64,000 nt of DNA from contig JASSKH010000015.1 in the NCBI GenBank assembly GCA_031763025.1, positions 13,260,774-13,324,773 of the forward strand, given 5' to 3'. The position numbers were made by a program, and so were the translations under genes. Numbering within the stretch: the first letter of the stretch is position 1; each line of letters begins with the position of its first letter. Under the pieces are notes generated by a model. That model saw only the letters and a program-made list of their open reading frames with translations, searched no databases and was not told where the DNA came from. Source of the DNA: Macrocystis pyrifera (lineage: Eukaryota > Sar > Phaeophyceae > Laminariales > Laminariaceae). Positions 14,401-62,200 of this stretch are shown here, one piece after another.

Positions 14401-14525
14401 TGCCGGCTGCCCTATATAGTGCCAGTGAAAATCGCTTGGCACAGCTGGGTTACCTATTAATAGTGTGGCTGTGTGCGGAGGGAATAGTGCCGGTACTGTT
14501 GGCTGGCGCATACCGGCACTCCAGG
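14365..14525 (-). mobile_element. MITE-3 copy 3, reversed
   Basis: GGTCCCTCCATCGTGCCC at one end, AGTAGTGCCGGC, TCGCTTGGCACAG and GTGCGGAGGGAATAGTGCCGG inside, ATACCGGCACTCC at the other. Reverse complement of the 5974-6172 arrangement. Contains TATTAATA at 14455-14462. Confidence 0.6.
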
Positions 14526-19850: not shown

Positions 19851-20134
19851 CTATCTAATCTATCTGATATTCTCGAAGCATCGAGCGCTGAAACACCATT
19901 GCACCCGCTGTGCGAAACCAAACCGCTTCACGGGTATATACAGCCTGTAGTGGTGTGCCCTTCCAACAATTTTGGGGCAAACTGCAGTCCCGTGAGCCCC
20001 TCGGTTCAACAGCATTACCCTTGTTTAGGTCGGGGTGTCCACAGACTAGAGTTGAAGACCATCCGGTTTGAGGCCCAATTATTAATAGAGACGAATTTCG
20101 ATTCGTCATGTTTTTTTTTTAGGGATAGTCCTAT

Positions 20135-21109: not shown

Positions 21110-21705
21110 GTCCCAAAACGCTTGTGTCGTATCAATTTCCAATTTTCCTGGTGTTATCTTGGTGCTTGGTGCTCTTTACTGCTAAAAAAATTAGCTAAAT
21201 AGCTGTGTTTTCGTGTACTTGATATTGCCTAATCTCACGTACTGGTATATGCTTTTTCGTACCCTTTTTTTACTCGAGTAGACCTTGGTACATCGAGTAT
21301 CCGAGTATCTCGAGTATTGAGTATAATCGATTGTTGAGCACCGAGTATCAGGTATGATACCTGGTACAACAGTACCTGGTACAGCAGCAGTACGTACCCG
21401 ATACCGAGCATCGAGTACATGCGAAAAGCAAGCATTTTTACATTTGGCACCCAACTCAAATCAGAAGTCGTCTGTCTCCCAAAAGCGTGGGTGCAGGCGT
21501 GCAGGCAGCAGCATCGAGGATCTGGACGGAACATGATTATAATATCTGGTACCACAAGCAGTAGTAGTACTGCTGCTGTACCTGGGCATTCCTCCCAACG
21601 AGTGAGTAGGGATGTGAGCTGGATGGTCTCAAGTCGCCAACTACCGCTTGTGCCTGGTATTAATAGTTGTGATCAATACCAGGGTACCTGGTATTACAGC
21701 AGTAG

Positions 21706-22781: not shown

Positions 22782-23811
22782 GTTTGCTTTACAACAAACT
22801 AATTATTTGTTCAGTTTTTCATTTGTTTACCATGTTGTAAACCACAGCACCTCCCTTCCTCTGTTTCGTGTATATCCAGCAGCGCCGACTTGTTGTATGC
22901 ACTCGTGGCTCCTGGCTCGAGGTCATTACCGCTGTCTTGCGATTTCTTCGCGCTGCTGGCCCACTATGCTCCCGGGGGCTTTGGCCACGGCGTGGCAATA
23001 TCCTCCAGAGTTCGAGCGCACAGCAGTGATTCATGGCAGCCATCATCTCGCAATCTTAAGCTATTACACTATAATACTATTAATACCACTCTGTTATAGG
23101 TGCATGTGCACCCGAGAACTTTCGCAGCAGGTACGACGTAAGATGTGTAAATGCCAGGTAAGCAAGTGGTACATCACCCCGACGTGAAACGTTTACAGCG
23201 GGGTATATAGAAAATGTGGACGAATTTCCAAGCTCACGTTTTCGACAACGCAGAGAGCGCAAGCGCCTAGCAATTCGTTTATTATGTGCTGATCTCGACA
23301 GCAGCAGTACGAGATGTTTGCAACAAAGACCCTGCCTGCCCCGCTTGTATTGGAGAAAATCAGCTCGGAAATGCATCCCAGCATGGGGTGTGCTATCTTG
23401 CATGCTAATAGCTACTGACTGGTACAGGTATATACCTGCTGGTCAAAACACGCGTAGCAAACAGGACAACTAATACTGGTATTAATAGTATTAATAGTAT
23501 TATTATTAATAGTAACACAAACACTTCGGACGAATGTCATGCTGTAAGTGATGATTATATCTGCGGTACGAGTATCTACAATAGCTGATTTCTTGCCAAC
23601 AGGGAGAGTAGACGCCGAGCGGTGCGCGGTGCAGTCTATGGAAATATCTCGACGAGAACTTTGTACTCGTCACGAAAACAACAACTCGTAACAACGAAAC
23701 GATCTTGGTCGTGCGTGCGTATATATATGTATGTTGTACCAGGTATATTTTATAAATTTTGAAATACGTCAGCTGGTATATTGTGTTATTCACTTTAGAT
23801 CTTCTTTTCTA

Positions 23812-25915: not shown

Positions 25916-26516
25916 GTTGACGAACGCAGGACGGAGACGGTAGACAGGGTAGCAAGGTACCAGAGCGCCTAGTAGGGAGAACCTGGCTATCTATGCTACT
26001 CGTACCACAAACTGCTGCGACTACCTGGAGGGTGTTTTGTTCTTTGACTTGATTGTTATTTCCCTTGGTTGTTAGTCTAAGACTTACTCTGTCTAGCAAG
26101 TATGTATTAATAGTATAACCATTTCTTTAGCTCGTTCTTTTTTAGGTGCCTGCCACACATCTCCTGAGGGAGGCATGGCATATTTTTCTTTTATCTTTCC
26201 TTTTCCTTTTCTCTTTGGTTTGTTTCTTTGCTCTCTGTTTTTTGTTTTTGTTTTTGTTTTCTCTTGTTGTCTCTAATTTAGAGCATGTGTTTGCCGTGCC
26301 TGTCGTATCCAGCATCATGACATAACATTGCGTTGTCCGCTCTGCTTACGGCATACCAGGTACGTAACAATGTACAGCAGTAGTGTAGCATCTCTACGTC
26401 GTAGTTTTGTCACCACAGAGCTTGCATCTCTAGGATTGAAGATTCGGCACGAACACTGGTTGTGTTGGATGTCGACCGGTAGAAAGAACGGTTTAATGTC
26501 AAGAACACACGCACAC
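25916..26516 (+). mobile_element. LINE-A copy 3, 3' UTR only
   Basis: Begins GACGGTAGACAGGGTAGCAAG, repeating 25645-25700, so a second truncated LINE-A end abuts copy 2. Ends with CACAGAGCTTGCATCTCTAGG, GAACACTGGTTGTGTTGG and GGTTTAATGTCAAGAACACAC. Confidence 0.7.
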
Positions 26517-27275
26517 CTCTGGATATGCCACAAAAACTTGTTGTTCTTTTTCTTTTCCAATTTTGGATCACATGGTTTCAGAGACCCCACTGCTGTTGTC
26601 CCCCTACCCCCCTCCCCCGTCTCTAAAACCAAGCGATCCAAAAGCGGAAAAAAATCGTACCAGGTATATACTGTATATTTTTTTCATGTTTTTTCTCGCG
26701 AATCGTCGTCGGTTGACATCATCCCTCCTGTTTGTGTTCAACATTCTGATACGTCGGGAAAAGAAGAGAAAAAAAAATGTCCCAGGTGCCGCTGGTGACT
26801 CTGAACTAAAGCTTACATACCGGTACCATCGTGTATGATATCATACCTGGTTGTACGAGTATCCAACATCGAAATCGTACGAGTATCGACTACTGGCTGC
26901 TGCTGTACGTACTGCTGTACGTACGTACTGCTGTTGTTTTTTGTTTTGTTTTTCGTTGTCGTAGTAGCGAACTCGATTATCGTTCGGTCTCCAACACTAC
27001 AACAGTACAGCAGTAGGTGGGTGCCCTGTTGGAGAAAGTTGTCTCGGAACTGCGTCTCAGGGGCTGCGTTATATTTGCATTCCAAAACACGCAGGATGGA
27101 TAACACACGAGCCGAAACAGAAGTCGTACTGGCGAAAGAAACACGCATGGTCGGACGAATTTCCAAGCTCGTGTTCGCGACAACCGGGAGATTGCAGACG
27201 CCGAGCTATCCGTCTATCTCGTCTACTTGTCTACTCTGCTTGCTTCATTGCAACAATGTACAGTATTAGTATTAA
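26517..27275. other. Intergenic stretch without a supported gene
   Basis: Rich in short palindromic words: TACCAGGTA near 26660, TACTGCTGTACGTAC near 26905-26935, TACAGCAGTA near 27004. No exon can be supported. Confidence 0.4.
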
Positions 27276-27385
27276 TATTACGGGGGACCATAGTAAACAG
27301 GACCAAAAATTGTCAGTAAAAATAGGTAAATATATAGTTTTTTTATGTATACCATAGGTCCTATTAACTATAGACCCCCGCAATA
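27276..27385 (-). mobile_element. MITE-1 copy 11
   Basis: TA-TTACGGGGGACCATAG, reverse core, right end AGACCCCCGCAA-TA. A TATTAATA word overlaps its left flank. Confidence 0.9.
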
Positions 27386-27849: not shown

Positions 27850-29570
27850 GCGTTCTATCTCTTAGTTGCCTAATACATGGGTACGGCACCGACAGCAGTA
27901 CTTCTGTTAATAGATGGTTTATGCTTGTTTTGTACCGACATAGAACTACTCATACAATATATAACTGATTACTTAGATCTCACTCTCTGAGCGTGCTCGG
28001 TTGGTACATCCCTGGCCTCTCAGAGCTCCCACTTGGAAATCGCCTCCTTTTATTACTTGCCGGACCTTTCCAGCGGGTCTTTGTTTTCTCCTTTTCTCTT
28101 CGTACTTTCAGTCCTTCTTTCCTTTTTTCTTCTTTCGTTTCGTGTGCGTGCGTGTACTCCGAGCACGGTTCCGCGGGCGAACCCGGCACTGTCGCGGGTG
28201 TCAGCGGGTGCTGGCAGGTAGAGGGAGAGTTGAAAGGAGCGCGGTCGCCGCTTTCGTGCCTAGGCGTCGCGTGTGCCTCGAGACACGAGGGATGCATCAA
28301 TAGGCTCTGTCTGACGTCCATTTGTGATTTTGATAGAGCACGTACGACTATTTAAGGGTCGTTCGGGACTGTAATATAATATTCAAGCGGTGCTTATTTT
28401 TGCGACCGGGCTGAAATCACAAGAGGGAGGTACCCCGTCTGAGCACCAACATTGTCGAGCTGGCGAACGAGGTCCACGGTGAGCACCGGTCTTCACGCGA
28501 GGCGGGCGACGGGGCTCACTGTGGAAGAGAGGGAGGAAAGCTTGACCCGGACCGAATCGGTGGCGAGATGGTCGCGAGAGGGGCGGGCGGCGTACGAGAC
28601 TGAGAGAGAAGCTCTGCTGTTTGATTTTTTCTTTTTTTTCATTTTTTCTTTTTGACTGGTGTAAGGTGTTCCAATCAGGTAGTAAATTATTATACGAAAG
28701 GGGACGGGGATTTTTTTTTTCTTCCAGAAATTTTCGGTATCATTTTCATTGTTTTTGCTGTGTTGCTGTGCCGTGGGGTGCTTTATCTTTCGTACATACG
28801 AGTACAGACAGAGCATATCTAAGGAAGAAAATAATTACCCTACCTGGGGTATGTACGTACGTACGACATGTGAGCGAGTGTAGCGGAAACCCGCCCGCCC
28901 GCGACGCGAAGCGTATGTGACGTCCGAGCTGTTTTCTCCTGAAGCATGGCGGCGGGACTCTTGGCATTATCAAGTTGCCAGTTGGCAACTACAGGGGTCA
29001 TGAAAAAAAAACAAAACAATCATGGACCTCTGTCCGCTTCGCATAATTTGATATAATTTTCCTTCCTGAGCGAGCGTAGCGGGCGGCGTAGGCCGCCCGC
29101 GGAGCGAAGCGCCTTGTAATATAATACCTACCTGGTACAGTATGACCAGGCTGTTGACCTGTCACATACATGCCAGGTACGAGCAGCAGGTATATTGTAT
29201 TGCCTTCACATTAAACCAGGGATGGCTGTTACCGGTAACAGATAACTACCGGTAACTGATGCAGGAGGTTAGTAGATCTAAAGTATGATGAATTTTTTGG
29301 CGTCCCCGGTCTCTTACAACAGAAAATCAAAGAATGATAGGAAATGGAAACCCGGCCAAAATACCGTAAAATGAACGAAAAGTGAGCGCTCACGGCACAT
29401 AGCACGGCAGCAGCACGTTCCAGGAACATGTGCTTGCTTTTGTTTTGGCGCATCACATGCGAATCGTCACGCCTTTATTTCTTACCCCGGGGATGATAAG
29501 AATCATCCCCGGTTTTGAGGTAGTTACCGGTAAGTAGTTGAAAAACTGAATCCGCGTGATTACGGGAAAG
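27850..29570. other. Intergenic stretch, locally CpG-rich, no confirmed gene
   Basis: 28180-28300 and 28440-28620 are richer in CG and have coding-like composition. The best exon-like piece is 28424-28480 (REVPRLSTNIVELANEVH before a GTGAGC donor), but its acceptor is weak. GCGAAGCG-type words recur near 28910 and 29060-29110. Confidence 0.3.
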
Positions 29571-29690
29571 TATTACGGGGGACCATAGTAAATAGGACCT
29601 ACGGTACACACAAAAAACTACCTGGTATATATTTACCTATTTTTACTCACAATATTTGGTCCTATTTATGTACTATGGCCCCCCGTAATA
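29571..29690 (+). mobile_element. MITE-1 copy 12, with two TA-site scars
   Basis: Standard ends. Two extra segments relative to consensus: TACCTGGTA at 29619-29627 in place of a core TA, and TATGTA at 29667-29672 in place of a TA in the right terminal repeat. Confidence 0.92.
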
Positions 29691-29734
29691 GTAGGTTCTG
29701 GTCAAGGCAACTGCCATCCCTGCATTAAACCGTT

Positions 29735-29930
29735 TTTTCTACCAATTTGGGCGTAAATGTAAGGATCGCTTGGTATTCGTATTAGTGTGTCTATGTTACT
29801 TATATTTCCGTCCACAGTGGTACATCAGTACGCCTACCGCACGACCTGTGGTGTCCATGTGTCCGTCCTGATTCCTTATCCTGGAGAGATACTAATTCCG
29901 TGGTCACGGGCTGAGACAGAGAAAAACCGA
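29735..29930 (-). mobile_element. LINE-A terminal fragment, reversed
   Basis: Collinear with the minus-strand LINE-A end at 10262-10400: GTCCGTCCTGATTCCTTATCC, GAGATACTAATTCCGTGGTC, GAGACAGAGAAAAACC. Confidence 0.55.
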
Positions 29931-30221
29931 ACTAAAGATGATCGCAAATTAATGGGTAAAAATAAATAAAAGGAATAGTCGCAAATGAATGAGTAAAGCA
30001 AGTGAATTGCCGACGTACCGGGCGGGTGCAACTACTGCTGCTGTTGTACCAGATCGATTTTAGAGTGGAACACTAGGCCCTACACCCTTTTGACAGCGCA
30101 CGTTTTGCCTTGCATAGCGTGTCTCCTGACTCCCGACACACATGTTTGTGTGTGATACCATCATGACCAGTTCTTGTTTCCCCTCTCTTTTCTCCCGCTA
30201 CATACCCTGTGTTCAATCCTC

Positions 30222-30369
30222 AGCCGCCGCGCAGACGGAGCGACGACCCGAGGGGGGACGAGTTTTCTAAAGACCTGGCCAGCGTGTTTTTCTGCTGGGC
30301 TTGCGCTCTGGGCGTGGCCCACTCTCTCGGCGTTGACGCGGCCGCAACCCTCGCTATGGGCATCCAGGC
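30222..30369 (+). CDS. Candidate exon, possibly of a MazG-like helical protein
   Basis: Pyrimidine-rich acceptor ending AATCCTCAG, then RRSDDPRGDEFSKDLASVFF / CWACALGVAHSLGVDAAATL / AMGIQ, and a GC-type donor CAG/GCAAGG. The DLAxVFF...LGVDAAATLA pattern recalls the helix before the conserved GVD of MazG-type NTP pyrophosphohydrolases, but the key acidic residue of the usual ELxDV motif is not present, so the assignment is weak. No flanking exons found. A degenerate copy of its 3' half lies at 30686-30770. Confidence 0.3.
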
Positions 30370-30685
30370 AAGGAAGACAGCAGTACATTAGTATGTTCGA
30401 CAGCATTATTAATAGTATATTTCATATTGATAGTAGCGTATTTTATTTCGTATTGAAAGATTCGGTATTTCGTTTTTGCCCGAATCCAAAAAAAAAAATA
30501 ATTACCTCGATTTCCAGTACGATCCCCACGTTTACATTGTCTGCTTTTGCTTCATATACCCCAGTAAAACTGTTTTTTTTTTATTTTTATTTCGAAAAAG
30601 TGCCGAGCTGTCGATGTACAATTAGTATCGATATATTTCGCAATGTCGATACACGAGACACACCGAACGTTTGCTTTTGACAGTT

Positions 30686-30770
30686 TGGCCCCACTCTCTT
30701 GGCGTCGACGCGGCCGCAACTCTCGCCCAGGGACATCCTTCAGGCAAGAAGACACCACCAGTAGGTACAG
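30686..30770 (+). pseudogene. Degenerate echo of the 30222-30369 exon
   Basis: GGCCCCACTCTCTTGGCGTCG, ACGCGGCCGCAACTCTCGCC, CATCCTTCAGGCAAGAAGACA parallels the 3' half of the exon, including the CAGGCAAG junction, about 390 bp downstream. Confidence 0.6.
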
Positions 30771-30864
30771 CGGCGGGTACCCTGGGTTGAGACAGCAATG
30801 TCACAGCAGTTGATGCCCGGACTTGAAGAGAGAGGGCACGCTACTTCTGGACATTTGTACAGCA

Positions 30865-30957
30865 GTCCGTCTGACTGCAGTCCCCCTTTTTTGGGGACAA
30901 ACTGCTCATAAAATTTGACTGCATTGTCCCCAAAACGGGCTTGGCCCCTTTAACCCC
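30865..30957 (+). mobile_element. MITE-2 copy 2
   Basis: GACTGCAGTCCCCCTTTTTT, GGGGACAAACTGCTC, then TTGTCCCCAAAACGGGC ... CCTTTAACC. Confidence 0.65.
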
Positions 30958-31108
30958 TTTAGTACCGCAGTCAGTCCCGATTCGGGGACAAACCAGTCTA
31001 ATTCCAAGTCATTTGTCCCCAAAACGGGACTGCGGTACTAACAAACTAGTCTAATTCCAAGTGATTTATCCCCAAAACGGGACTGCAGTCCTAACTAAAA
31101 GGGTTGAG
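30958..31108 (+). mobile_element. MITE-2 copy 3, tandem double
   Basis: CCTTTAGTACCGCAGTC at the left, then two successive right arms (TTGTCCCCAAAACGGGACTG and TTATCCCCAAAACGGGACTG), as if one copy inserted into or recombined with another. Confidence 0.65.
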
Positions 31109-31346
31109 TAGTTTGTCCTGAAAGGTTGAAGAAAGGCCGTGCACCACCCTAAGGCAGAAAGAAGCGTGAGGGCCGCTTCGTCTTCAGATCAATGTTTTAC
31201 GGCTCCTTAAGGCTCCTTCAGGCTCCTTAAGGCTCCTTACATTGACCGCCAGAGTGGTGCTGTATCTCCCGCTGCTGTGGATACAGGACAGAACGCTCTT
31301 TTTTAGAGAGGCGTTTTCGGGCTGTATATACCGTACCACACGTCTC

Positions 31347-31460
31347 TTAACCCTTTTGTTATCCCTTTTAGTACTGCAGTCCCGTTCTGGGAACGTACCA
31401 TTCTAATTACAAGTAGTTTGTCACCTAAACGGAACTGCAGTCCTGCTGCTGAAAAAAGGT
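31347..31460 (+). mobile_element. MITE-2 copy 4
   Basis: TTAACCCTTTTGTTATCCCTT leading to AGTACTGCAGTCCCGTTCTGG; right arm diverged (TTGTCACCTAAACGGAACTG). Confidence 0.65.
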
Positions 31461-31486
31461 ACCCAGTATTACTGTATTCATGCTAT

Positions 31487-31594
31487 TATTTCGGGGGACC
31501 AGAGTATATAGGACCTACGGTTTACACAAAAACCTATATATTTACCTATTTTTACTAACAATATTTGGTCCTATTTACTATGGTGCCCCGTAAT
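31487..31594 (+). mobile_element. MITE-1 copy 13
   Basis: TA-TTTCGGGGGACCAGAG left end, standard core, right end GGTGCCCCGTAA-TA. Confidence 0.9.
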
Positions 31595-32238
31595 AATAGT
31601 GTTCGATATCGGCATTGAAAGTTTCGCGGTGTCTCCAGAATAAATGGCTGAACTGGCTTAACTTTCGATGTTATTTATCGAAATATCGCAATTTCGGTGT
31701 ACCAGGTAGTTGAAATATCGACGTCAGTGCATGATATAGTGTGATGAGATTATACCGAACCGGCTATCGTATGGTTGTATTTATTTTATTTTGTAAATAT
31801 GTAATGTGACAATAGCTTCTACTGTACGTGCCAAAGAATGCTCGCCAGCTTCCCTAAACATTCGGGGACCGTTCGTAGCATATATAGCTGTCCTCGAAGC
31901 AAATCTATCCATGGCATGAATCGCGGCAATGGAGTTATCACGTGAACGTTACGAACAAACAGCACAAAAAACAGGCGAACACAAATGGCCCTGTTTCGTA
32001 TGGAACGGCACTGCCTGCCTGCCCACCAAAGGGCTTGCGAGAAAATCTTACCTAGGGACTGGCTCGGGTTCTTGTTCTTATTATCACCGCGCGTTACGTT
32101 CAGGCTCTTAATGTGGTACGCTCAAGTTCTTGTTATCATTCTGGCCTGGTGTGTCCTACACCTACCCTAATTTCGACGCAACAAAAATGATTTTCTTGCG
32201 CTGGTACGTTTCGTGCAAAAAGTCGAGCCAGACGCTTC

Positions 32239-32335
32239 TTAATCCCTTTAGTACTGCAGTCCCGTTTTGGGGACAAATGACTTGGAATTGGAGTGGTTTG
32301 TCCCCAAATCGGGACTGCAGTACTAAAGGGGTTAA
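32239..32335 (+). mobile_element. MITE-2 copy 5, best-preserved
   Basis: TTAA-TCCCTTTAGTACTGCAG ... CTGCAGTACTAAAGGGG-TTAA: near-perfect palindromic arms with TTAA on both sides, the basis for calling a TTAA target duplication. Confidence 0.85.
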
Positions 32336-32339
32336 CTCC

Positions 32340-33235
32340 CCCCCGTTTCTTGAGAACTATGACAATGGGAACGCGAAGTTTTGAGAAATTTCTTGGAAAA
32401 CATTGCTTTCTTGAAACAGCTGAAGATTTTCTCGTACCGCCGCTGTGGGAAAAAAAAGGGAAAACTATTTGTTTTTTTCTCTCTTCTTTTTTTCTCAAAC
32501 GGCTGCAGACGGCGCAATCGGTTTTTTCTCGTTGCAAATTGTCAACACGCTGATTTAAATCAGCCCGTGCGACGATAGACCTTCGATCTCGACACAGACT
32601 CAGCCCATGGCCAACCCGCTTGGTGTCGGACAAGGCCAACGAGTGTAAATGACGGCGATCGAAGATATCAGGTGGATCCATGATCTAGGGGGCGAGAGCT
32701 TGCCTGCGGCGTCCTACGCTCTTCTTCCAGACCTGAGAAAAAACATTTTTTTGCCATTCGGACGGATCGTGAAATTTGTCATCTGTTTTGTGCACACCAG
32801 CGGCCACTTGTTTTTTTTATCATACGTCTAGCCAGCGCTCGCCACGTATCACCGACCTTTATGTGAACCAGGTGAACCTAGGATGGATCGCAGCCCCTAA
32901 CGAGCGCATCCTGTTCGCAATTCATGACGCAGTCGCTGGTTTTGTCGATCGATGTCTGTCGAGGACTCGGAATCTCGCCGCTTTGAACTAAACTTTCGCC
33001 TGAGTTTCTATGAAGAAGCCGATATTTGTCCCAACATCTACCCCGGAATTGTTTTCTTCGGGGTTTTTTCCCGAAATTTCGGAATTTTTCGTTTTGAAGA
33101 ATCGCGCTCATAGCAAGCTTGTCCTGAAAAATTGACGCGGGTATCTTTGAAACCCCCAAAAAACACAAAATATGGAAACTTTTTTTTCATTGGCTTAGGT
33201 CTAAGTCGGTGTTTTTCACTCAGATCGGAATAGTA
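32340..33235. other. Upstream part of the DUF1295 locus, 5' exon not found
   Basis: The first exon(s) of the gene at 33565-42521 should lie here or further left. Open stretches such as WIHDLGGESLPAASYALLPD (~32670-32735) and VNLGWIAAPNERILFAIHDA (~32877-32940) look exon-like but do not fit the family N-terminus. Confidence 0.3.
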
Positions 33236-33239
33236 CTGC

Positions 33240-33263
33240 AACGACCCCCCCGCCCTCCCTTCG

Positions 33264-33300
<37 letters not shown>

Positions 33301-33560
33301 GCTTTGAAAACATGCCTCAACTCCCCCCCCCCCCCAGATTGTAACCTGTCTCGAACCCCCCCCCCTCCCACTAAAATAGAAGCATGTCTTGCCCCCCCCC
33401 CCCTCCCCCCCCTCCCCGCTTGTTAGTAACATGCCTCGACTCCCCCCTCCCCCCTCTTGCCATGATCAAAAGTGTCTCGACCCCCCCCCTCTCTCCCCTC
33501 TCCGCTTGTTAAAAGCATGCCTCGACCCCCCCCCTCCCCCCTCGTCAAAAAAACGCCTCG
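33240..33560 (+). repeat. C/T-rich minisatellite ending at a splice acceptor
   Basis: About six units of AAAACATGCCTCGACCCCCC followed by a variable C/T tract. The last unit continues as AAAACGCCTCGACAG, whose AG is the acceptor of the DUF1295 exon at 33565. Confidence 0.8.
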
Positions 33561-33564
33561 ACAG

Positions 33565-42521
<8,957 letters not shown>

Positions 42522-42829
42522 GTGAGCCGGAACGGAGAAAGGCCTCGCCCGTCGCCGTTTTAGGAAACCGCATCCCGAAATATCAGTGTTCTACTGGGTT
42601 CCCACTCGGACTCTTTTGTTTTTTGTTCGTCCGGCGGATTGGTTAACGTAAAAGTTAAGATCACACTTTCCAACATTTGATTATGTTTTCCACCTGAATG
42701 CCCGAAGAGATCAAGTGGAATATATATATCGAAACAGTCCTTGCATTTCCCGCCAGAGTGGTGTTAACAGTATGCAGCTTGCGGTGTATTACGGCACTAT
42801 GCGCCACCACCTCCTACGCTCCCTTCCTC

Positions 42830-42978
42830 CCCCCCCCCGCCCTCCTCCCCCCCCCCTACCCCCCCCCTCCCTCCCTCACTACCCCCTCCCCCCCTTTGTC
42901 CCCCTCCCTACCCTCCATCCCTCCGTCCCTCCCCCCCACACACCCCCCCCCTCCCCCCCCCCCCCCCCCTCCCTCCCT

Positions 42979-43013
<35 letters not shown>

Positions 43014-43085
43014 CCCCTCCCCCGCCCCCCTCCCTTCCACCACCCTCCGCCCGCCTCGTCCCCCCCCCCCCCCCCCCCCCCCTTT
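42830..43085 (+). repeat. C/T-rich low-complexity tract
   Basis: Several long C runs separated by T and A. Pro-rich frames here are compositional. Confidence 0.85.
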
Positions 43086-43214
43086 GCGTGTGCATATTTC
43101 CGGGCTATCTATGTATAATATCAGGCGGCTATCCTTATCCTGATCAGTACCCCCACCCTCGAGCATGGGGCCGATAAAAAATACGGGTCGCTAGCGGCCT
43201 ATCAGGACTACAAA

Positions 43215-43850
43215 AGAAGAGCGCCCTCTCTGTTCTTTCGGCTGTGGTGATTGGTGATTAGTCAAACATTTGGCGGTGGTGATTGGTCATTGGTAGTCGG
43301 TGGGATGTGGTGATTGGTGACTGGTCAACGTCTGGCTGTGGTGATCGATGATTAGTCAACCTGTTGGCTGTGATGACTGAGAATGCAAATCGAGTCGCTG
43401 GCGGCGCTACCGGGAGTGCAAGAGTTGAGCACCCTCCCCTTTTTTTCGGCTGTGGTGATTGGTGAATGGTCAACGTTTAGCAGTGGGGATTGGTGATTGG
43501 TCAACGCTTGGCGGTGGTGATGGATGGTTGGTCGTGGGTCGAGTGTGTCATCAATTATTGGCCAACTTTTGACTGTGATAGTTGGCAAACTTGAGGAGTA
43601 TCTACAAGAGACCAATATTCTTTCTGTCGGCTGTAGTGGTTGGTGATTGGTCGACGTTTGGCGGTGGTGATTGATGATTGGTCTATGATGGGCTGCGATG
43701 ATTGATGATTTATCGTCTCTCCGCTGTGGCAATTCGCCAGCTTCCGGCTCTGTCGATTGGTCGTTATGTTTTGTTGATTGTTGATTGGTCGTATTTCGGC
43801 TTTGTTGCATAGTGATGTTGAGGCTGTGGTGATTGACGATCGGGAATGCC
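43215..43850 (+). repeat. TGGTGATTGGTCAACG minisatellite
   Basis: Degenerate units containing GTGGTGATTGGTGATTGGTC and CAACGTTTGGCGGTGG, spaced ~45-60 bp. Confidence 0.8.
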
Positions 43851-44785
43851 AACGCTTCGACTATGAACACACTACTGCAAACGTTTTCCAGTCTATTCCC
43901 AAGCTCTTGTCCACCCCCTAGACGTAGGCACAGTTCTAAAGGTGGCTTGACTGCGGTCATTTTCTGTCACATACTCAAGCGGTTTTCCGCGGTTGATTAT
44001 GAAACGTTTTTTCACTGAAAACATGTATACCACTCTAATGTCGAGTAGTTTTCCACATGGACGTAGATGCGGCTCTATTAGGAAGTTGGCCTGCAAACAT
44101 CGTTCAGTCTGATTCCAAGTAGTTCCCGCCCTACGCGTGTGGTAATATGACACTGTACGGTACAACACGTGTGATGAGAGAACCCCCCCCTCTCGGACAA
44201 ATTTCCCTCCCGATTTTCCACGGCAATGGAGAGAGACTGCGAACGCCGAGCGATGCGTCTTGAATGGAAAAGTTATCGGCGAGAGAGATTTTTCCAAAGC
44301 CACCGTTTTTATTCCGAGTGCCCCCCTTTAGTTTTGGAAAAAAACAACCGTCTCGGAAAAATCGTCCCAGGGGGTGTGTTATCTTATCGCCCTGTGTGTT
44401 ATACTATCACCCTGTGTAATCTTATCACCCTGTGTGTTATCTTATCGCACGTGTTACTACAGGATAGTAGGGGGTTTTTACCGTAATCTATTTTCGGGGG
44501 GGGGTTAGTACTCAGATACCCACGATGGACGCAACCGATCATATTGTTTACACGCCCTGTTTTGCTTTTGATTACTATGCCCCCCCGTATTGATCTGATT
44601 TCAAACAGTTTTACCCCTACACGCAGTGTTCCTTTTGCCCCTGCACGTGGGCGTCGTTCGAACTGGGGTTTCGCTGCAGGCATTATCCAGTCTCATTGCA
44701 AGTAGTTTTCCACCCCTTAAGCGTGGGTGCGGTTAGTTTGTAACTGCGTTAGCTGCTAAGAAAGTTGAAGAAGTGAGGCGCGCTC
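43851..44785. other. Intergenic stretch without a recognisable gene
   Basis: Contains a short AATCTTATCACCCTGTGT repeat near 44390-44450. The missing C-terminal exon of the DUF1295 gene could lie in 42522-48000 but was not recognised. Confidence 0.3.
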
Positions 44786-44789
44786 GGTT

Positions 44790-45495
44790 TGATTCCGTTC
44801 GGTTCGGTTCGGTTCGGTTCGGTTTTGTTGGATTCGGTTCGCTTCGCTTCGGTTCAATTCCGTGTGATTCGGTTGGGTTAGGCTCCGTTGGGTTAGTTTT
44901 TTTCCCTTTAATTATGTTCCACCTTCTTTGGTTCAGTTTTGTCCGGTTCGGTTCGGCCAGGATGGGGTTCGGCTTGGCTCTGTTCGGTCCGGTTCCTTTC
45001 GGCTCCATTCGATTCGGTTGGTTCGGTTCGGTCCCCTTCCGTCCGGTTCGGCTGGGCTTCGCTCGGCTGGGTCTGGTTCCGTCGTATGTTTTCGGTTTTG
45101 TTCTGTTCGTTCCGGCTCTGTTGGGTTAATCCCGGATCGGTTTGGTGCGCTTCGGCCACGTTTGGTTGGACTCCGCTCGGCTCCAATCGGTGCGGTTCGG
45201 CTCGTCTCGGCTTGGTTCGGCTCCGGTCGGTTCGTCGGTTCGGCTTGGTTCGACTCCGTTCGGTCCGGCTCGGTCCGATTCGGTTCGTCTCGTCTCAATG
45301 GGGCTCGGTTCGGTTCGGTTCGATTGGTTTGTGTCGGGTCGGTTGGGATCCGTTCGGTTGGGTTCGACTCCGTTTGGTTCGATTCGGTTCGGATCGCATC
45401 GGTTCGAATCTGTTTTAGACGGTTCGATCCGGCTCGTTTCGGCTCGAATCCGTTTGGTTCGGTTCGACTCGATTCGGTTCGGTTCGTTCGATTGA
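44790..45495 (+). repeat. (GGTTC)n pentamer satellite
   Basis: About 700 bp of decayed GGTTC units. Five is coprime to three, so every frame cycles through the pentamer and both strands remain open for long stretches (FGSVR on plus, EPNRT on minus). Not a gene. Confidence 0.93.
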
Positions 45496-45679
45496 CATTC
45501 TTGGGGAGGAGCAAGAATACCAGGGAGGAGGTGGAAGGGGAAGGTCGGTGGAACTCCGGAGTTGCTTAGCTTATGTTTGCATCGGGTGCCGGGCAGCAAG
45601 TATGTCCGTTGACGCTCTAAGTAGATTCGGCCCGTCAAGACATCTTTAGACTTGACATACTAGTTTTAGTGTGATATTT

Positions 45680-46070
45680 CCTTGATAGATGCCCGTCAAG
45701 GGTTTGACGGCTTCCCGTCAAGTGTTTGACGGCTGTCCGTCAAGGTTTTGACGGATGTCCGTCAAGTGTTTGACGGCTGTCCCTCCGGTGCTCTGGACCC
45801 CCCCCCCCCCCCCCCCCCTGCGTAATGCGGGCGTAGAAATTTCCTTGTGGAGTGGAGGCACTGAACAATGTAGTAGACCTCACGAGGTGTCGACAGTCTA
45901 TTGGTGCGCTACATTGTTCAATGCCTCCACACGAATTTCTGTACGCTCACATTGTGCAGGGGGGCGGCGGGTCCGGGCCACCTGTACCGTCAAGCTCTTT
46001 GGCATTTGTCCGTCAAGGCTTTGACGGCTTCTCGTCAAGGTGTTGACGGCTGTCCGTCAAGAGTGTCCTC
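45680..46070 (+). repeat. 24-bp minisatellite split by MITE-4
   Basis: TTTGACGGCTGTCCGTCAAG units at 45690-45780 and 46000-46070. Confidence 0.88.
45786..45990 (+). mobile_element. MITE-4 copy 2, inside the 24-bp minisatellite
   Basis: GCTCTGGACCCCCC left, GTGCAGGGGGGCGG...GGGTCCGGGCCACC right, inner arms AATTTCCTTGTGGAGTGGAGG and GCCTCCACACGAATTTC pair. Matches 6178-6384. Confidence 0.7.
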
Positions 46071-46629
46071 AACCAACAGATTTTGCCGCGGGGGGGGGTG
46101 CGTCTTGGGGGCGGGTGCGGCCATCGATAGCTTGCGTCAGGGTGACCGTATGTCTCCGATAAGTGGCAGTCCCGAGCTGCCATAGGGGAAAGGTACTACA
46201 GAAAAAACTTGTTCGTTTTATTTTTGTTTTATTTTCCGTGTTTTTTCTTTCTTTCTCGTCTCTGGCGTTACTTTCGTGTTGCGCTTTACATGTGTCTTGG
46301 GTATATTTGTCTTTTACTTTTTCTTTCCGTTTTTGTATTATTTTCTGGCGTCTGGTTACCGTTTCTTTTCTGTTACCAGGTAGTTGTTTTCTGTCTGTAT
46401 TCATTAGTACATGTGTGTACATTTTTGGTCGTGTGTACTGCACGACGAAGACGCACTCACATACAGACTATCGTACGCGCGAACGTAAACTAAAAACGCG
46501 GCACAACATGCTGTTCAAAAACGAAAAACAAGACAAAATCACGAGCAGCAAAAAATTAATCACGTACACGAGCGTAGCCTAGCAACGGCAACCAGCGAAG
46601 CGGCTCAGAGGGAGGAGTACCGTTTTCAA

Positions 46630-47300
46630 CTCTCCATATATCCGTTGTTGAACGGTGTGTGGGGGGGGGGGGGGGTATCCGTTGGAGGGGGATGTGTACC
46701 TGTTGGGAAGGGGGGGGTATCGGTTGCGGGTGGTGTGTATCCGTTGGTTGTGTGTAGGGGGTGGGCGGGGTATATATCCGTCGGGTAGGTGTGTGTATCC
46801 TTTGGTGGGCAGGGAGTGATGGCATTGGCGGGTGGTATCATCCATCCTACCTGAAGAACCAAAACAGAACTGAGATATAACACCCGTTGGGCAAGGTTGA
46901 GAGGGGGGGGGGGGGAGAGGCGGGGGTGGGGAGAGGCGGGGGTGCACTCGACATCATGCATGGTCGTAGTCGCATGGAGGGGCGGCATTTGCTCCGTGTC
47001 GTCTGCACCGAATGTCTGAAGGAAATCCCGATTGCAACATCCAAGTAGCCGTCGAGGGTCGGGGGGGGGGGGGGGGAGGAAGGGAGGGGGGGAACTTGCT
47101 CGGTGTCGTTTACGCTGCTGGTCTATCGGACGACGTGCTGATTCCACCGCCGGATGTAGCTGTTGACCAAGAGAGGGGTTGGGGGGGGGAGTGGAGTGGG
47201 GGAGGACATTTGCCCGATGTTTTCTGATGCGAGGGTGTAAAGGCGATGAGGGAAGGGGGGGGTGGGTGGGCTAACCCCGCGTTTGGTAGGAGGTGGAAGG
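46630..47300 (+). repeat. G-rich minisatellites with an L-tail fragment
   Basis: GGTGTGTATCCGTTGG units at 46640-46810; G runs to 47300. A reversed L-type tail (GTGCACTCGACATCATGCATG) is at 46945-46995. Confidence 0.6.
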
Positions 47301-48974
47301 GGACGGAAGGGGGGCTGCTTGATACGTGTCCTCTGCGCTAAGGAGTGTATATCCCACAGGCGTGTTTGATCAGTTGGATGAGTCGAGACGAAAAAAAAAA
47401 AAGGAAATTAATTTTCGGCGGGTTGGGCATAACGGGCGCATTTTACCGGTTCTACAGTAGTGGAGGGGCGCGGCCAGTCAGAAGACCGTCAAACCGCGGT
47501 CTCTTGTTCTAGCCTCTTTTTGCTCTTGGTGAGTTTTGCGAAAATTGGACGCGGTTGGAACATGGACGGCCAGAAAATGCAAACGCACATGTATGCACGT
47601 TGTCGTTGCTTGAAGGGTTGTGTACGCACCTCAAACAGGCCGTGATGCTGACCATCTATCATCTATCATCTATCAGATGCTAATGATTGGGAAGGGGGGG
47701 GTGGTTCGAAAGGCTGGAGGGGAGGGAATTTTTAGAGGGGTGGGGGGGGGGTTACGTTTTCAAGTACCCCTTTGTATGAAGCCACATAGTAGGCCACGGA
47801 CAGAGTGTCGTCGGGCGTTGCATGGGCTGTTGGCAAGGATGCGCGTTTTTTGGAAAGGAGGTGAAGACGGAACACGTCTGTCAGAGAGTAGACCAGTCAG
47901 CGGGGGAGCGGGGGTGGGGACGGGGGGGCGGAATCAAGGGTGGATGGGGCTTGCGTGTCCTCCGCGACGTTGTCAGCGGGATATATCGGGAACGCATCAA
48001 TATATACTGCACATGCGCATGCTCGCATCGTGTCTATTACCTGGTACATGATAATCAATGAAAATATCACTTTTTTGGCTCGATAAGAACTACCGTCCAA
48101 CCCGTGGCGCAGTCAAGGGACATCCGGAAATTATGCCCGGGTTTCCTACGTGTGTGGATATGGGTAATTTTGATCGCGGGTATGTAGGATATTGACTGCT
48201 CACCTGATTTTGCTGCTGCGAACATCGCCCACAGCGACCAACTATACAGCAACACAAACAAGTGATATGCAGTATGCCAACAAGAAAAATCAGCTCTAAT
48301 AACGTAATCTGAGCAAGCCTTACAACCTCATTGCGAAAACAACCTTGAGCATGGCCTATTCGGTACCGGTAGGATTAAGTGCAGCACTCGCTCGCTGCCA
48401 ATGGACATCATTTCTTAATCGTCACTACTATGGTAACTGTATGTACGAGGTGCTGACGTTACTGTATACATATATATATATATATAATCCTATTGGGACG
48501 GACCAAGGTTTAGAGACGGCGCAAAACGCGACAAGTATTATAAGTAAGTGCGGTCTCATCAACGTTCTGAGCAACAGCGTGCGACAACAACACTATTTCA
48601 TGGAAGGACGATGATGCTGCGCACGCGTCGCGTACAGCAGCTCCTTCCGTATGCACTTTTGGGAAACAACAACGTACCTGGTCCAGTATAGTACAAACAG
48701 CGCAGGGTGCCCAGGGTGAGGCACGCTACGTATAATACGATTATAATGGTACAGTTAATAGAGGCCAAATCGGCTGGAGGACCCTCCTGCACCAAAAAAG
48801 CTACTGCTGTGATACAGCAGTATAGATTTCCCGCTGTGCGTAAGAGAGAAGGCTACTATTAATACTACAGTTAGTAGTAGTCATCCTCTTCAGGGATGTG
48901 GGGTTGGAGTTAGATATATATGTCCATGCTTCTGGACAGTGGCCTGAAGGCCACACCTTCCGCGGGGTACTTAC
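47300..48974. other. Intergenic stretch without a supported gene
   Basis: Satellite C fragment at 47465-47505 (GTCAAACCGCGGTCTC). A hydrophobic minus-strand stretch at about 48204-48262 (LFVLLYSWSLWAMFAAAKS before CAG/GTGAGC) is exon-like but lacks a good acceptor. Confidence 0.35.
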
Positions 48975-49089
48975 TATTACAGGTGACCACACTAAACAGG
49001 ACCTACCAGGTATAGTGCACTCAAAAACCTATATATTTACCTATTTTTACTACTAAAATCTGGGCTTTTTACTACGGTCCCCCGTAATA
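48975..49089 (+). mobile_element. MITE-1 copy 19, carrying a TACCAGGTA scar
   Basis: Diverged left end TA-TTACAGGTGACCACAC, right end CGGTCCCCCGTAA-TA. A TA near the start of the core is replaced by TACCAGGTA (49004-49012). Confidence 0.88.
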
Positions 49090-49461
49090 CAAGTTTTTAC
49101 CTGTACAGTACATACATCCCCTTACCCCACCCAGCAGCCCGCGCTGCTTCTCGTGTGACCGATGCTTTGCTGTTGTAATATCTTCATTTGTTTTCCGACA
49201 CTTTGTCCGTGATAAATCCCATTCGATGGCAGCAAAGTGGCCGCGAAACAGCAGCCCGATGTTGATATCATACGTTGCAGGTGCAACAATATTTTATTTG
49301 GGTAAGGGTGGTTGTACTACTGTAGTGCGTATTCAAGTAAGTATACGCAGGGGAGGATGATCGGTTGGATGGGATTGGTGGTAATCGAGGAATTTGTGTC
49401 AGCTTGTTCAGTCTGAGTGATGCCCTGCACATACTTTGTTGGAGGGCAAATCAACTATTAT

Positions 49462-49573
49462 TATCACGGGGGACCATAGTAAATAGGACCCACGGTACAC
49501 CCAAAAACCTATATATTTACCTTTTTTAGTAACAATATTTTGGTCCTATTTACTATGTATGGTCCCCCGTAAC
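49462..49573 (+). mobile_element. MITE-1 copy 20, carrying a TATGTA scar
   Basis: TA-TCACGGGGGACCATAG left end. The right terminal repeat reads ACTATGTATGGTCCC where the family has ACTATGGTCCC (49554-49559). Confidence 0.9.
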
Positions 49574-51050
49574 AGCAGCAGGCAGGTGTGGGTGGGTTGC
49601 GAAAGCGAAAAAAGAAATGTGAGCCTTTTTTGTGCTTTGCAACGTACACATGCTAAAACTACACTACTACCTGTTACGTGTGAATTGTACTGGTATATCA
49701 TCATTAGTACTACTACTGGTGTACCTGGTATGTACTGCTGTCGTACGAGTACCACCATGCTTCTGGTTCTTCTATGTAATAATACCAGGTCGTCGTTGTA
49801 GTCGCCATACTGCTGTAATCGAGTCCGTCCGTGCTCACAGGATAGGCTCCAATAAAACTCTGGAACAAGCGGGATCATTGAGCGGAAGGAAAAAAAAAAA
49901 CAAACCACAAAGAACACACATGCATACCGCAACTACTACATACTACTGCTACAGTTAGTACGCAGAATATGGGTACCATACATATACCGGTATGTACGAA
50001 TGAAATTAGGAAACCCGGTGATCGGTGACTCGCCCTGTGGACATGTACTCATTACGCATGTATGTATGTACTCGTACATAAAATACAATATAATAACCAA
50101 GAGGGTCAACAGGACAAACCGTGCCAGTACATTTTATGACATACCAGCACGTTCGGCATACAGATAGATATATCTAGATATATCTGGATGTGTGGTCTTC
50201 ACGCGGAAAACGGGCGTTTTATTTCGGTTCCATATATGGATCTTTCTGGATACCGCTGGATATATATATCCATCCGTTGGTGCCTTGTTGTTCCGTTTCG
50301 AGCATTTTTAGGCGTTTCATTCTGTTTCTACGAGAGATCGAAAGATCGTTAGCTTCACGCAGTACGAAAGATCGTTAGCCGTACAAGCAGTAGTACGACA
50401 GACGAAAGATCGTGCTCTGTCTGCTTCCCCGACCAACGGTATTCGGCGCCCGACATTCCCTCAGAGAAGTGGCGAGAGAAAGAGACAGCTGGTGGTGGCT
50501 GAGTTGCTGGGTGTCATAGGTGGCATAGCAGCAACAACAGCGGATGGAATAGATTTGATGCAAGACTAACTATTATACGAATATCTGGTACACGTATACC
50601 ATACACAGGTGAGCACATTGGACTCGTGTACCTCTTTTTACATCACATACCAGGCACATGACGAAGACTTCATTCCTTTTTTTTTTGGTGATTGGTGAAC
50701 ATATGTACACCAGAACCAGGTACGAGCCCCTACAAACTCCTCGCAGTTGACCCCTGCTCCTCAGAGGTGTTGTGTGGTTCGTGGTGGTGGTGTGCTGTGT
50801 GCTGTGTGCATTGCGGTTTGGGGGGTGCGTGGATGATACGTGGGTACTATTAATAGGCAGTATCTATCTGGTGTATGATACAGGCATGAGATGTACCCAT
50901 AGTGATCAATGGTATGCGATTGGTTGTTCCGTCGATCGCTTATTTTGACCATCCTGTTTCCTGCGGATACTCCTATTAATAGTGCAGAAGCTCTGCTCGT
51001 ACGTACTACAGTATTTTTTTTATTTTTTTATTTATTTTTCATTATCACTT
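49574..51050. other. Intergenic stretch without a supported gene
   Basis: Scars: TACCTGGTA near 49720, TATTAATA near 50846 and 50971. GAAAGATCGTTAGC is repeated near 50340 and 50365. No exon supported. Confidence 0.35.
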
Positions 51051-51352: not shown

Positions 51353-51544
51353 TACTCATATGATGTACCTGGCATACGTACTCGTACTTCTATATATTGA
51401 AGATCTGTCTGCATTATGTGAGCCTGATTTTTATTTTGCGGCTTAAAATCTGGCGATGTTATAACAACACAACAAACAGAAACGACAACAGCGACAACTT
51501 CGTGCAGTACTTGAAAAATATACCAGGTATAAACTGTTCTCAAC

Positions 51545-51866: not shown

Positions 51867-52421
51867 TATGTAAAAACAATAATGACAACGACAAGAGCAA
51901 GGATTATCGTCGATCAGTTCCAGGGTAGACCGAGAGATACCCTGTTAGGGGCAGCGATCCCATGTATCTCGGTGGTTTTATTTGCTATTACACAGCAGCA
52001 ACATATGTCGCCTCCTGCAAAAAAATAAACAACTACAATTCACGATGCCTCAAGTGCCAGGTATCTAATTATCTATATGCGGTACAGCCGATTGGAAAAC
52101 CACCACTAGGAAAGCCAGCATGCGGTTCATAGGGTATTACAACACTGCTATATTAGTATTAATACTATCATCAATCTTGACATCCGACAATCTGTAACGT
52201 AGCTTCAACGTTGATCGCTCATGAGCACCCCGAAATAAGAAAAATAGGGAAACAAGAGGGTGCGTAAGCAAAAAAAATTGAACTCCCTTCTGCGCCGATT
52301 TCCGGCCTGAGCACTATCTACCCCGTTCGTTGTGCTTGCTATTTGGAAGCCGTTACACTTAAAAAAAAATAGTAAATTCAGCTAAAGAATCCTACGGACC
52401 TCTTTACTGCTTCTTGCTTAT

Positions 52422-59200: not shown

Positions 59201-62200
59201 AATTAGGCGCGCCCTCCGCCAGAGTCGGGCTTTCCACTATTAATAGTACTGGAGAAACGCCACAGCGAGGACGGGAACGAAATCTAAGATGCAGTAGTAT
59301 GCTTTGTGTTTGACCTGTGTGTGTGTTTGTGTGTGTTTTTTTTTAGCGCCCCGGAGAGCGAGAGGAAACCCCTGTCCACACTTATTTCTCAAGTTTTCGA
59401 CCTGTGGTTTTCTTCCCGCAGGCTCGTCTCTCGAAATAGTTTGCGCCCCGGCGAGTTGTTGTTTTTGTTGTTGTTTTGGTGTAGGTTTAAGCAGAGCGGC
59501 GAGTACGCCGACTACAACAAAAAGTCGCCGGCTGCATACTGTAGTAGTCGGCCAGAAGTAAACGAGTTGCTGTTCCTCCTCTTCCGTCTCGGTGTTCGAA
59601 AAACGGAGCACCCTCTGCGTTAGGATAACCGCAGTTAACGGACACACACCACCCGATATACAGCATGCGGTTTAATGCACCCGCTGGTTTGGTTTGTTTC
59701 TTGTGCTTTAGAGAGCTCAGCTGTCGAACTTGGAGTGGTCTTGACGACAATCCCCGATCGAACTCTAACTAATGTAGTAGCAGTAGGTGCTAGAGTAGTA
59801 GCAGTGGGTGCCACCTGTAGTACTAGTACAACACGGGCTGGATTTCACATTATGAGGATTGGCGCTGACATTGCTCGACATTGGCATTGGCATGAGCTTA
59901 CGTTCATCCTGGCATCCTGGCTGTAGCACGCTGGCGTCGTTGATTGATTCTGACATTGTTGACAATGAAAGTACCATTGTTTCATATGTTCCCTCTCACA
60001 ATGTTCCAGCTCAAATATTGATCCTTCCCAACGAATAGAAAAAACAAGAAAGCTCGACAGGAAATCGAACCAAGAAGCTATCGATGTTTTTATTGCTGTT
60101 GCGTTTGCGCTCCGACAGTATGTAGCATGAGCTTCAACACTGACGACTCATAAACATTCATGAACATTATCCGAAAGAAGAAAACTAGGGGAAACAACAA
60201 CAAAAAGCAAACATATTGGCCTGCAGTAGACTGTTGGAATACAATAGCCTATTGCACGGCAGTAGCTTCAACGTTGATCACTCATGAACATTCGTAAACG
60301 CTACCCGAAAGAAGAAAACCTAGGGAAACAATTACAAGAAGCAAACCTATTGAGCTATACAGTAGACTGTCGGACTACAGTAGCTTTAACATTGATCACT
60401 CACAAACATTCCCCGAAAGAAGAAAACCAAGAAAACACATATGTGCGAATTCTTACTCCTTTCTGTACCAACTTCCTGCTTGACCTCTGTCTACTTCAAA
60501 TGCTGTCATTGCTCCTTCATTCTCATTACATTATCCTCTATCCTGTACTCCTATTACGAGGGACCATAGCAAATCGGTCCTGCGGTACACACAAAAACCT
60601 ATATGTTTCCCTATTTTCACTAACAATATGTGGTCATATTTACTACGGTCCCCCGTAATAGGTGCTGGGTTGTCTGCTGGAGAACGGGTATGACGTTCTT
60701 CTGTCCGATAGTGATGCGATCTGGCTCAAAGACCCGATGGAGGACATGAAGATGCACGGATTCGACAGGTAACGTGGTGCGGTACTGGAGCAAATATCTT
60801 CAATCTGTGTGAAAATCGTGCGTGAGTTAAGATAGCGTATTAACTACAGCAGTCTCCACCACCACCACCACCGCCGCCGCCACCAGCAACAAAAACAACA
60901 CCATCACCACCGTCACCACGACCATGACGACCATGACGACCACCACCACCACCACCACCACCACCAGTAACACCGCCAGTAACACCGCCACAAACCGCCA
61001 CAGACCGCCACCACCATCAGTAACACCAACGTCAAGACCACCCCCCCCCCCCCCCCCCCCTATGTTATATACCTGGTATATATATATATATATTGGTTGG
61101 GTTGGCGTCGGTTGGCGACGACGCTGTAAAACACGCTTCTCACTGCGTTAGCTAGACAGCCAGGGTACCTTTTTATTTTATTTATTTTTTGGCGGTTACC
61201 ACGGCTGGCGGTCGAGCTAGATCATTTTTGTGACCTTTACTCCGCACAAGGGGGATGATCGTGTCACGTAGTGTGTATAAGGTGAGGAACCCACGAGGCA
61301 GTTACATAGTGAACCCATTGCTGTCTCTGGAAGTGGCCACACTAGAAAATAAATCAATTCATTGATGCTGTCATCCATATGCAAGAAAACCCGCCTCTAA
61401 AGCGGTTCTTAGTAGGATGCAGCTCACCCTTCATGCGACTCGCCCGCCCAACACCTCACAGCGCTTCGCACTTGGTGCAAGCAACGTCTGCCTGGTCGGT
61501 GAATACTCTACGTGCTCCGTCCCGGCATAATAGGGATGCGAGGGTCTATGGTCATACGACTACGGTCATGCATGATAACGAGTACACCCTCCCCACACAA
61601 TAGGCGGCCAAACTGGATGGGGATAAGGTTAGCAAACAAATTATGTGTAATACATGGAAACAGCGTAATGAGCGCCCAATTGTTGGAGGTGTCTCTATTA
61701 GGAGTACGAACAGTGCTCCGTCTCGAAAGGGATGCGTGGTCAATGGTCAAATGACTATGGCAAGCAACAAATGAGTACGCCCCCCCCCCCCCCCCCCCCC
61801 CCCCGACTAATGAGTACAACCCCCCCCCTGACCACGCTCCGTCTCGAAAGGGGTATGTGGTCAGTGATCGAATGACTAAGGCAAGCCACCAACGAGTATC
61901 CCCCCCGACCACCACCACCAACCACCATCACCCACCACCACTACCACCACCAATATCACCATTACCACCACCACAAGCATCACCATCAACACCAACACCA
62001 ACACCAATATTCCAACCACCGCAACCCCCTCTCCCCTCTCCCCTCCCCCCCCGCCCACCAGAGTATTACCATTCTCATGAAAGAATGACAAAACACGCCA
62101 AAAAAACCCCCTCTTCCCTCTATACCAGGCACGACATGATGATGTCGAGGGGAAGCTTTCCGGAGAGACTGGCAAAAAAATGGGGAGTCACCATGTGCAT

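Follow-up and report, generated by a model that had tools for sequence, protein, structure and literature searches.

The 64,000-nucleotide stretch of the giant kelp (Macrocystis pyrifera) genome analyzed here (contig JASSKH010000015.1, positions 13,260,774 to 13,324,773 of the forward strand; "the window" below) raises the question of why two short words bounded by TA, TATTAATA and TACCWGGTA, recur throughout it. The second stands for TACCTGGTA and TACCAGGTA, which are reverse complements and were counted as a single word. The original prediction was that both are dispersed excision scars of TA-targeting transposons, and this core is supported by word counts, by insertions at one site within the MITE-1 family of miniature inverted-repeat transposable elements (MITEs) and by a comparison of two kelp genera. 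As we argue below, the words very probably mark where TA-targeting cut-and-paste elements were excised, and the footprint TATTAATA would be the one left by the MITE-1 family.

Two words far above expectation

The window holds 23 exact copies of TATTAATA and 22 of TACCWGGTA, compared with means of 0.91 (sd 0.94, maximum 4) and 0.53 (maximum 2) in 100 dinucleotide-preserving shuffles. An earlier estimate by eye, about twenty copies of the first word and roughly as many of the second, was close to the mark, and the TATTAATA positions listed with it were correct to within 4 bases. A separate 200-kb sample (20 pieces of 10 kb each, taken from 18 contigs, L011-L030) was scored against the reversed word and against second- and third-order expectations. 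It contains 57 copies of TATTAATA versus 4 reversed (expectations 1.5 and 4.6), 46 of TACCWGGTA versus 1 reversed (1.7 and 1.6), and 71 of TACWGTA versus 27 reversed. Both words are dispersed in the genome rather than confined to the window, and the proposed count against expectation places them far above base composition in the window and the sample. If the sample rate applied throughout, there would be ∼150,000 copies of TATTAATA per genome, a figure that is an extrapolation and not a count. Of the 80 copies of TATTAATA in the window and sample (264 kb), 75 lie outside MITE-1 copies, and no mutual likeness was seen among the flanks of the word copies in the window.

Other words of the form TA-x-TA, with a short insert x between two TAs, are also enriched in the 200-kb sample: TACAGCAGTA (20 versus 0 reversed), TACGATA (62 versus 20) and TATCATA (63 versus 28). 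They may be footprints of further families; TACGATA is also present once as an insertion inside a MITE-1 copy (L010). TACCATA is not enriched (20 versus 40 reversed).

One TA inside MITE-1: empty, full and scarred

MITE-1 is ∼105 bp long and TTAC-ended (TTACGGGG...CCCCGTAA), with terminal inverted repeats of up to 26 matching bases counted inward from TA. Its outer edge is TA in 39 of the 50 left ends and 45 of the 52 right ends scored, and a 25-base end pattern has 18,116 + 17,952 exact matches in the assembly (537,376,219 bases, 223 contigs), compared with 0 for the reversed control; in viral contigs the pattern has no exact match. Judged by its TA target and the form of its footprints alone, MITE-1 would be of the Tc1/mariner type.

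At an inner site of MITE-1 (ACTA followed by TGG), 1-14 inserted nucleotides are present in 439 genomic copies (236 + 203), versus 41 copies (23 + 18) when the same letters are opened at a non-TA point; insertion at this site is TA-specific. None of the 41 control insertions shows TATTAATA, TACCWGGTA or TACWGTA, and one contains TATGTA; by eye, they are mainly short repeats of adjacent bases, or TGGTC elsewhere in the element. Insertion types were classed for 100 listed copies of the 439, and 74 of these have the form TA-x-TA, 48 non-tandem and 26 tandem. The 48 comprise TACGTA (15), TACAGTA (9), TACTGTA (7), TATTAATA (6), TACAGGCAGTA (2), TATATA (2), one each of TACCTGGTA, TACCAGTA, TACCTGGTACCAGGTA and TACCAGGTACCTGCTA, and three others. 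TACCWGGTA thus occurs at this site in one of the 100, plus two compounds. A further 13 of the 100 carry TATGTA at CTATGG, which equals a duplication of TATG and was excluded as evidence. Eleven of the 15 TACGTA insertions represent one MITE-1 variant on small contigs (C6, C44, C49, C54, C55, C63, C77, C116, C117, C154 and C188), a pattern that a duplicated or unplaced assembly region might produce.

In L027, an older MITE-1 is interrupted at its ACTA/TGG site by a complete nested MITE-1 (5836-5944) that has TA on either side. Because of this nested copy and the insertion-bearing copies, the same MITE-1 TA is known empty, full and scarred, TATTAATA itself being among the scars (39741 in the window). 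Homologous loci within the family thus display the empty TA and the full element on which the original prediction had been made to depend.

That prediction had named five places in the window where a word replaces a family TA. All five exist with the coordinates given for them, and the replacement is clean at 29619, 29667 and 39741; the word is also present at 49004, but in diverged surroundings, and the case at 49554 is ambiguous, since the change there equals a tandem duplication of TATG. Outside the window, copy alignment shows TACCWGGTA cleanly replacing a MITE-1 TA at L002:2762 and TACCAGGTA with additional bases at L002:2824 (L002 is described below). The automatic insertion classifier missed 39741, 49004 and L002:2824 through aligner gap placement; the words are apparent in the copy alignment. 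At window 27270, L002:2520 and L007 ∼861, MITE-1 copies have TATTAATA directly at their right-hand target TA, as if the TA had been used twice.

Comparison between repeat copies in general was made on insertions of 3-14 nt in the fetched DNA, minus tandem ones and those supported solely by one deletion-bearing copy. Of the 210 that remain, 28 are TA-x-TA, and each other dinucleotide accounts for 1-10; some of the 28 are not scar-like, e.g., a TA microsatellite. Seven TAAATA "insertions" were discarded as an artefact of one copy with a deletion.

Target preference links one word to MITE-1

Target preference was pooled over both sides of 42 MITE-1, 80 TATTAATA and 68 TACCWGGTA sites. At positions -3, -2 and -1 before TA, the frequencies of T, A and C are.48,.54 and.61 for MITE-1 and.53,.46 and.53 for TATTAATA, versus a background of.29,.29 and.21 at all TA sites. 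A preference for TAC before TA is common to both, which connects TATTAATA with the TTAC-ended MITE-1 family and lends support to the earlier claim that this word is the target TA plus MITE-1 end bases. At -1, TACCWGGTA sites favor A or G, and their preference is strongly different from that of MITE-1 (chi2 75); this word thus belongs to something other than MITE-1. C at -1 is also favored at TACWGTA sites (.39).

Empty sites in a second kelp genus

The MITE-1 end pattern is also present in two bacterial metagenome-assembled genome (MAG) contigs of GTDB, JALZWC010000131.1 and JALZWD010000061.1 (L001, L002), which resemble kelp/bacterial chimeras. In whole-tissue assemblies from blades of the bull kelp Nereocystis luetkeana, kelp DNA made up 39.0 to 49.8%, according to a passage of PMC9238374; from this and the sequences, we infer that L001:1 to ∼1250 and L002:1 to ∼3667 are bull-kelp DNA joined to bacterial DNA.

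The best collinear match of L002:541-3700 in giant kelp is G000:C218:14460961-14463621 (L051), with 84% identity over the longest piece. Over 2,994 aligned columns, L002 and L051 are 88% identical and have 39 length differences of at least 3, 38 of them not flagged as tandem. Among these 38, TA-x-TA accounts for 6 and the next dinucleotide for 4. Four of the six are clean short bull-kelp scars facing TA: TACTGTA (L002:702), TATTAATA (1019, in the context ATAC-TA-GTAAT), TATTATTAATAATA (3248) and TATTATA (3479). Of the remaining two, one belongs to a MITE-1 insertion, and the other is a stretch of the giant-kelp side that lies in a region rich in repeats. The 14-nt TATTATTAATAATA appears to be TATTAATA set within the middle of TATTATAATA, which would record two events at one place. 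Two MITE-1 copies, L002:424-535 and 2415-2521, likewise face TA in L051, and two more copies at L002:2677-2897 are also missing from giant kelp, where the alignment is unclean. In this one bull/giant kelp pair, therefore, the comparison of sister species reveals an empty TA opposite scars and opposite MITE-1 copies.

A proposed mechanism for TA-x-TA footprints, and the missing donor

In the mechanism we propose, an element would insert at TA and duplicate it, and on departing would leave both TA copies and a few end bases, converting an empty TA into TA-x-TA; a full element would formerly have been present at every scar. For TATTAATA, TTAA between the TAs could arise either by fill-in of 2-nt overhangs (TT + AA) or by pairing of 3-nt TTA overhangs through their terminal TA. 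Ends beginning TTA would have both TWA (as for Hsmar1) and TTAA as natural products, and both are seen. TACWGTA, TATTATA and TACGTA may come from different TA-targeting families or from alternative outcomes of repair. For TACCWGGTA the ends would have to start with CC and either retain 5 nt or join 3 + 2 nt. In this scheme, both the chemistry of the overhangs and the class of transposase are inferred.

The suggested search for a family with ends TA-CC(A/T) did not yield a convincing donor of TACCWGGTA: among the matches listed, covering ∼347 kb, there is no convincing recurrent TA-flanked inverted-repeat family starting CCWGG, CAG or CGA. One candidate was the TACCAGGGATATAATTA element at L020:2261-2732, which is bounded by TA and has ends starting CCAGGG; the word TACCAGGGATATAATTA has 31 exact matches genome-wide. 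That TACCWGGTA is its trace is nevertheless extremely improbable and already refuted by longer duplications. The TA preceding CC was imposed by the search word; the ends are actually CAGGGATATAATTAG, with direct repeats of ∼8 bp that, by eye at the 12 distinct loci whose right end was listed, match at 8/8 positions in L033, L034 and L049, at 7/8 in L039, L043 and L045, and at fewer in the other 6. Described by its ends CCAGGGATATAATTA, the element was rejected as donor for these ∼8-bp duplications. hAT-type elements have 8-bp target duplications and ends starting CAGGG or similar, and L020:2261-2732 and its relatives fit both features. Because it is not TA-duplicating, unlike the presumed source of TA-x-TA words, the hAT type is not that source. 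L020:2261-2732 and L031-L050 together make up a hAT-like non-autonomous family. Relatives of TACCWGGTA (68 copies) in the fetched kelp DNA are TACCGGTA (16), TACCAGGGTA or TACCCTGGTA (9) and TACCATGGTA (3).

Weighing the alternatives

Could the words have arisen without transposons, as small tandem duplications made by replication slippage at TA-rich places? TATGTA at CTATGG, including window 49554, is just such a duplication of TATG, and 40 of the 100 listed MITE-1 insertions are tandem by the script rule. However, TATTAATA, TACCWGGTA, TACWGTA and TACGTA do not copy adjacent bases at the MITE-1 site, the excess at TA over the non-TA control is large (439 versus 41), non-tandem words with a fixed x recur at unrelated TAs and TATTAATA shows a MITE-1-like target preference, all of which makes slippage a highly unlikely source. 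Their strong enrichment and their palindromic or nearly palindromic form might instead suggest that selection has preserved the words as functional motifs for binding or splicing, but they occur as insertions in MITE-1 and where the other kelp genus has TA, and their flanks are otherwise unrelated; we give this explanation scarcely any credence. A further alternative is that insertions at TA which failed or remained partial, and not excisions, gave rise to the TA-x-TA words, and departure itself was indeed seen by none of our tests. Full elements do occupy the corresponding TA (L027), though, and excision products of TA elements described in passages of PMC3878927, PMC7827188 and PMC1925063 share the same form, so that we regard failed insertion as very unlikely.

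Several observations weigh against excision footprints as the origin of the words. Among the 100 listed MITE-1 insertions, 26 are TA-x-TA words that equal tandem duplications, and another 26 are not TA-x-TA (14 tandem, 12 non-tandem). The flanks of TATTAATA and MITE-1 differ at -1 (p 0.003), TACCWGGTA is without a known donor, and footprints of 4 and 5 nt exceed the usual 2-3 nt. In the bull-kelp comparison, TACCAGGTA at L002:3589, which the script left unscored, faces TA only with one extra base difference allowed; the giant-kelp side of the pair lacks a clean short scar, and the pair has no outgroup. Finally, the sequences compared here include no polymorphic full-versus-scar site, and no excision was observed.

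Precedents and implications

Excision of Tc1/mariner elements produces 3' overhangs of 2-3 nt, and the overhang comes to lie between two TAs when the ends are joined, as described in parts of PMC7827188 and PMC3878927. Sleeping Beauty and Frog Prince leave TA-C(A/T)G-TA and Hsmar1 leaves TA-T(T/A)A-TA, according to a passage of PMC3878927. Kelp TACWGTA and TATWATA have exactly these respective forms, with the same TA target and the same change from empty TA to TA-x-TA, whereas TATTAATA (4 nt between TAs) and TACCWGGTA (5 nt) are longer. The nearest precedent seen for historical TA footprints is a Triticeae beta-amylase intron, for which passages of PMC1925063 report five putative historical Stowaway MITE footprints, in which 2-4 bp and 1-2 bp of the ends were kept, and a later insertion beside an old footprint. 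Both systems have TA-flanked MITEs and historical footprints, but the Stowaway case concerns one intron, whereas in kelp two words occur by the dozen per 200 kb and one is linked to its family by target preference. No report of excision footprints in brown algae was found in the open-licence literature searched, where PMC9587614, in the part available, concerns another transposon lineage, and TATTAATA is not mentioned as a word among the literature matches listed. Four aspects appear to be new: the scale of the phenomenon in a brown alga, the linking of one word to one family through its target preference, the greater length of the TTAA and CCWGG forms, and the cross-genus empty sites.

Excision is normally invisible in a single genome, where survivors can be counted and departures cannot; word counts, a donor link by target preference and sister-genus empty sites make departures countable. 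We put at about even the chance of a broader proposition, that kelp genomes archive the departures of TA transposons on a genome-wide scale. Several families would each have left footprints with a distinct word and target preference; these footprints would outnumber surviving elements, pile up as compound scars where a TA was used again, and vary between kelp genera at orthologous sites. If this is true, the words could be read as records of lost insertions labelled by family, among them insertions of a CCWGG family not seen intact. They would permit estimates of excision-to-insertion ratios and of vanished families from sequence, supply simple indel markers for kelps and reveal how brown algae repair transposon-made breaks.

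Other features of the window

Table 1. Word copies and word-bearing MITE-1 copies in the window
Position	Feature	Strand	Evidence
29571..29691	MITE-1 copy bearing two TA-x-TA insertions	+	copy alignment
29619..29627	TACCTGGTA replacing family TA	.	clean 7-nt insertion
29667..29672	TATGTA replacing family TA	.	clean 4-nt insertion
39649..39764	MITE-1 copy bearing TATTAATA	+	copy alignment
39741..39748	TATTAATA replacing family TA	.	clean 6-nt insertion
48975..49089	diverged MITE-1 copy bearing TACCAGGTA	+	copy alignment
49004..49012	TACCAGGTA replacing family TA	.	copy alignment; surroundings diverged, insertion split by aligner
49462..49574	MITE-1 copy bearing TATGTA	+	copy alignment
49554..49559	TATGTA within CTATGG, ambiguous: equals TATG tandem duplication	.	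copy alignment
868..875	TATTAATA	.	exact match
924..931	TATTAATA	.	exact match
1485..1492	TATTAATA adjoining right end of MITE-1 copy	.	exact match + copy alignment
2062..2069	TATTAATA	.	exact match
2804..2811	TATTAATA	.	exact match
9333..9340	TATTAATA	.	exact match
14455..14462	TATTAATA	.	exact match
17221..17228	TATTAATA	.	exact match
20080..20087	TATTAATA	.	exact match
21658..21665	TATTAATA	.	exact match
23078..23085	TATTAATA	.	exact match
23480..23511	cluster of three TATTAATA (23480, 23489, 23504)	.	exact match
26105..26112	TATTAATA	.	exact match
27270..27277	TATTAATA, final TA = target duplication of MITE-1 copy	.	exact match + copy alignment
30407..30414	TATTAATA	.	exact match
48857..48864	TATTAATA	.	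exact match
50848..50855	TATTAATA	.	exact match
50974..50981	TATTAATA	.	exact match
52157..52164	TATTAATA	.	exact match
59238..59245	TATTAATA	.	exact match
908..916	TACCWGGTA	.	exact match
949..957	TACCWGGTA	.	exact match
7360..7368	TACCWGGTA	.	exact match
13688..13696	TACCWGGTA	.	exact match
16193..16201	TACCWGGTA	.	exact match
16948..16956	TACCWGGTA	.	exact match
18875..18883	TACCWGGTA	.	exact match
21358..21366	TACCWGGTA	.	exact match
21373..21381	TACCWGGTA	.	exact match
21685..21693	TACCWGGTA	.	exact match
23737..23745	TACCWGGTA	.	exact match
26354..26362	TACCWGGTA; TA at this place in one related repeat copy	.	exact match + repeat alignment
26658..26666	TACCWGGTA	.	exact match
29129..29137	TACCWGGTA	.	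exact match
31700..31708	TACCWGGTA	.	exact match
46374..46382	TACCWGGTA	.	exact match
48038..48046	TACCWGGTA	.	exact match
49722..49730	TACCWGGTA	.	exact match
51521..51529	TACCWGGTA	.	exact match
61070..61078	TACCWGGTA	.	exact match

Another MITE, whose ends resemble TTAACCCTTTTAG...CTAAAAGGGTTAA and which has an inner CTGCAGTCCCGTTTTGGGGAC and apparently TTAA as target, is present at window 30951-32334 and at L002:2946-3050; it is missing from the giant-kelp ortholog of L002. On the minus strand, window 10785-12518 holds a reverse transcriptase open frame (PF00078, E 6e-33) that marks a retroelement.

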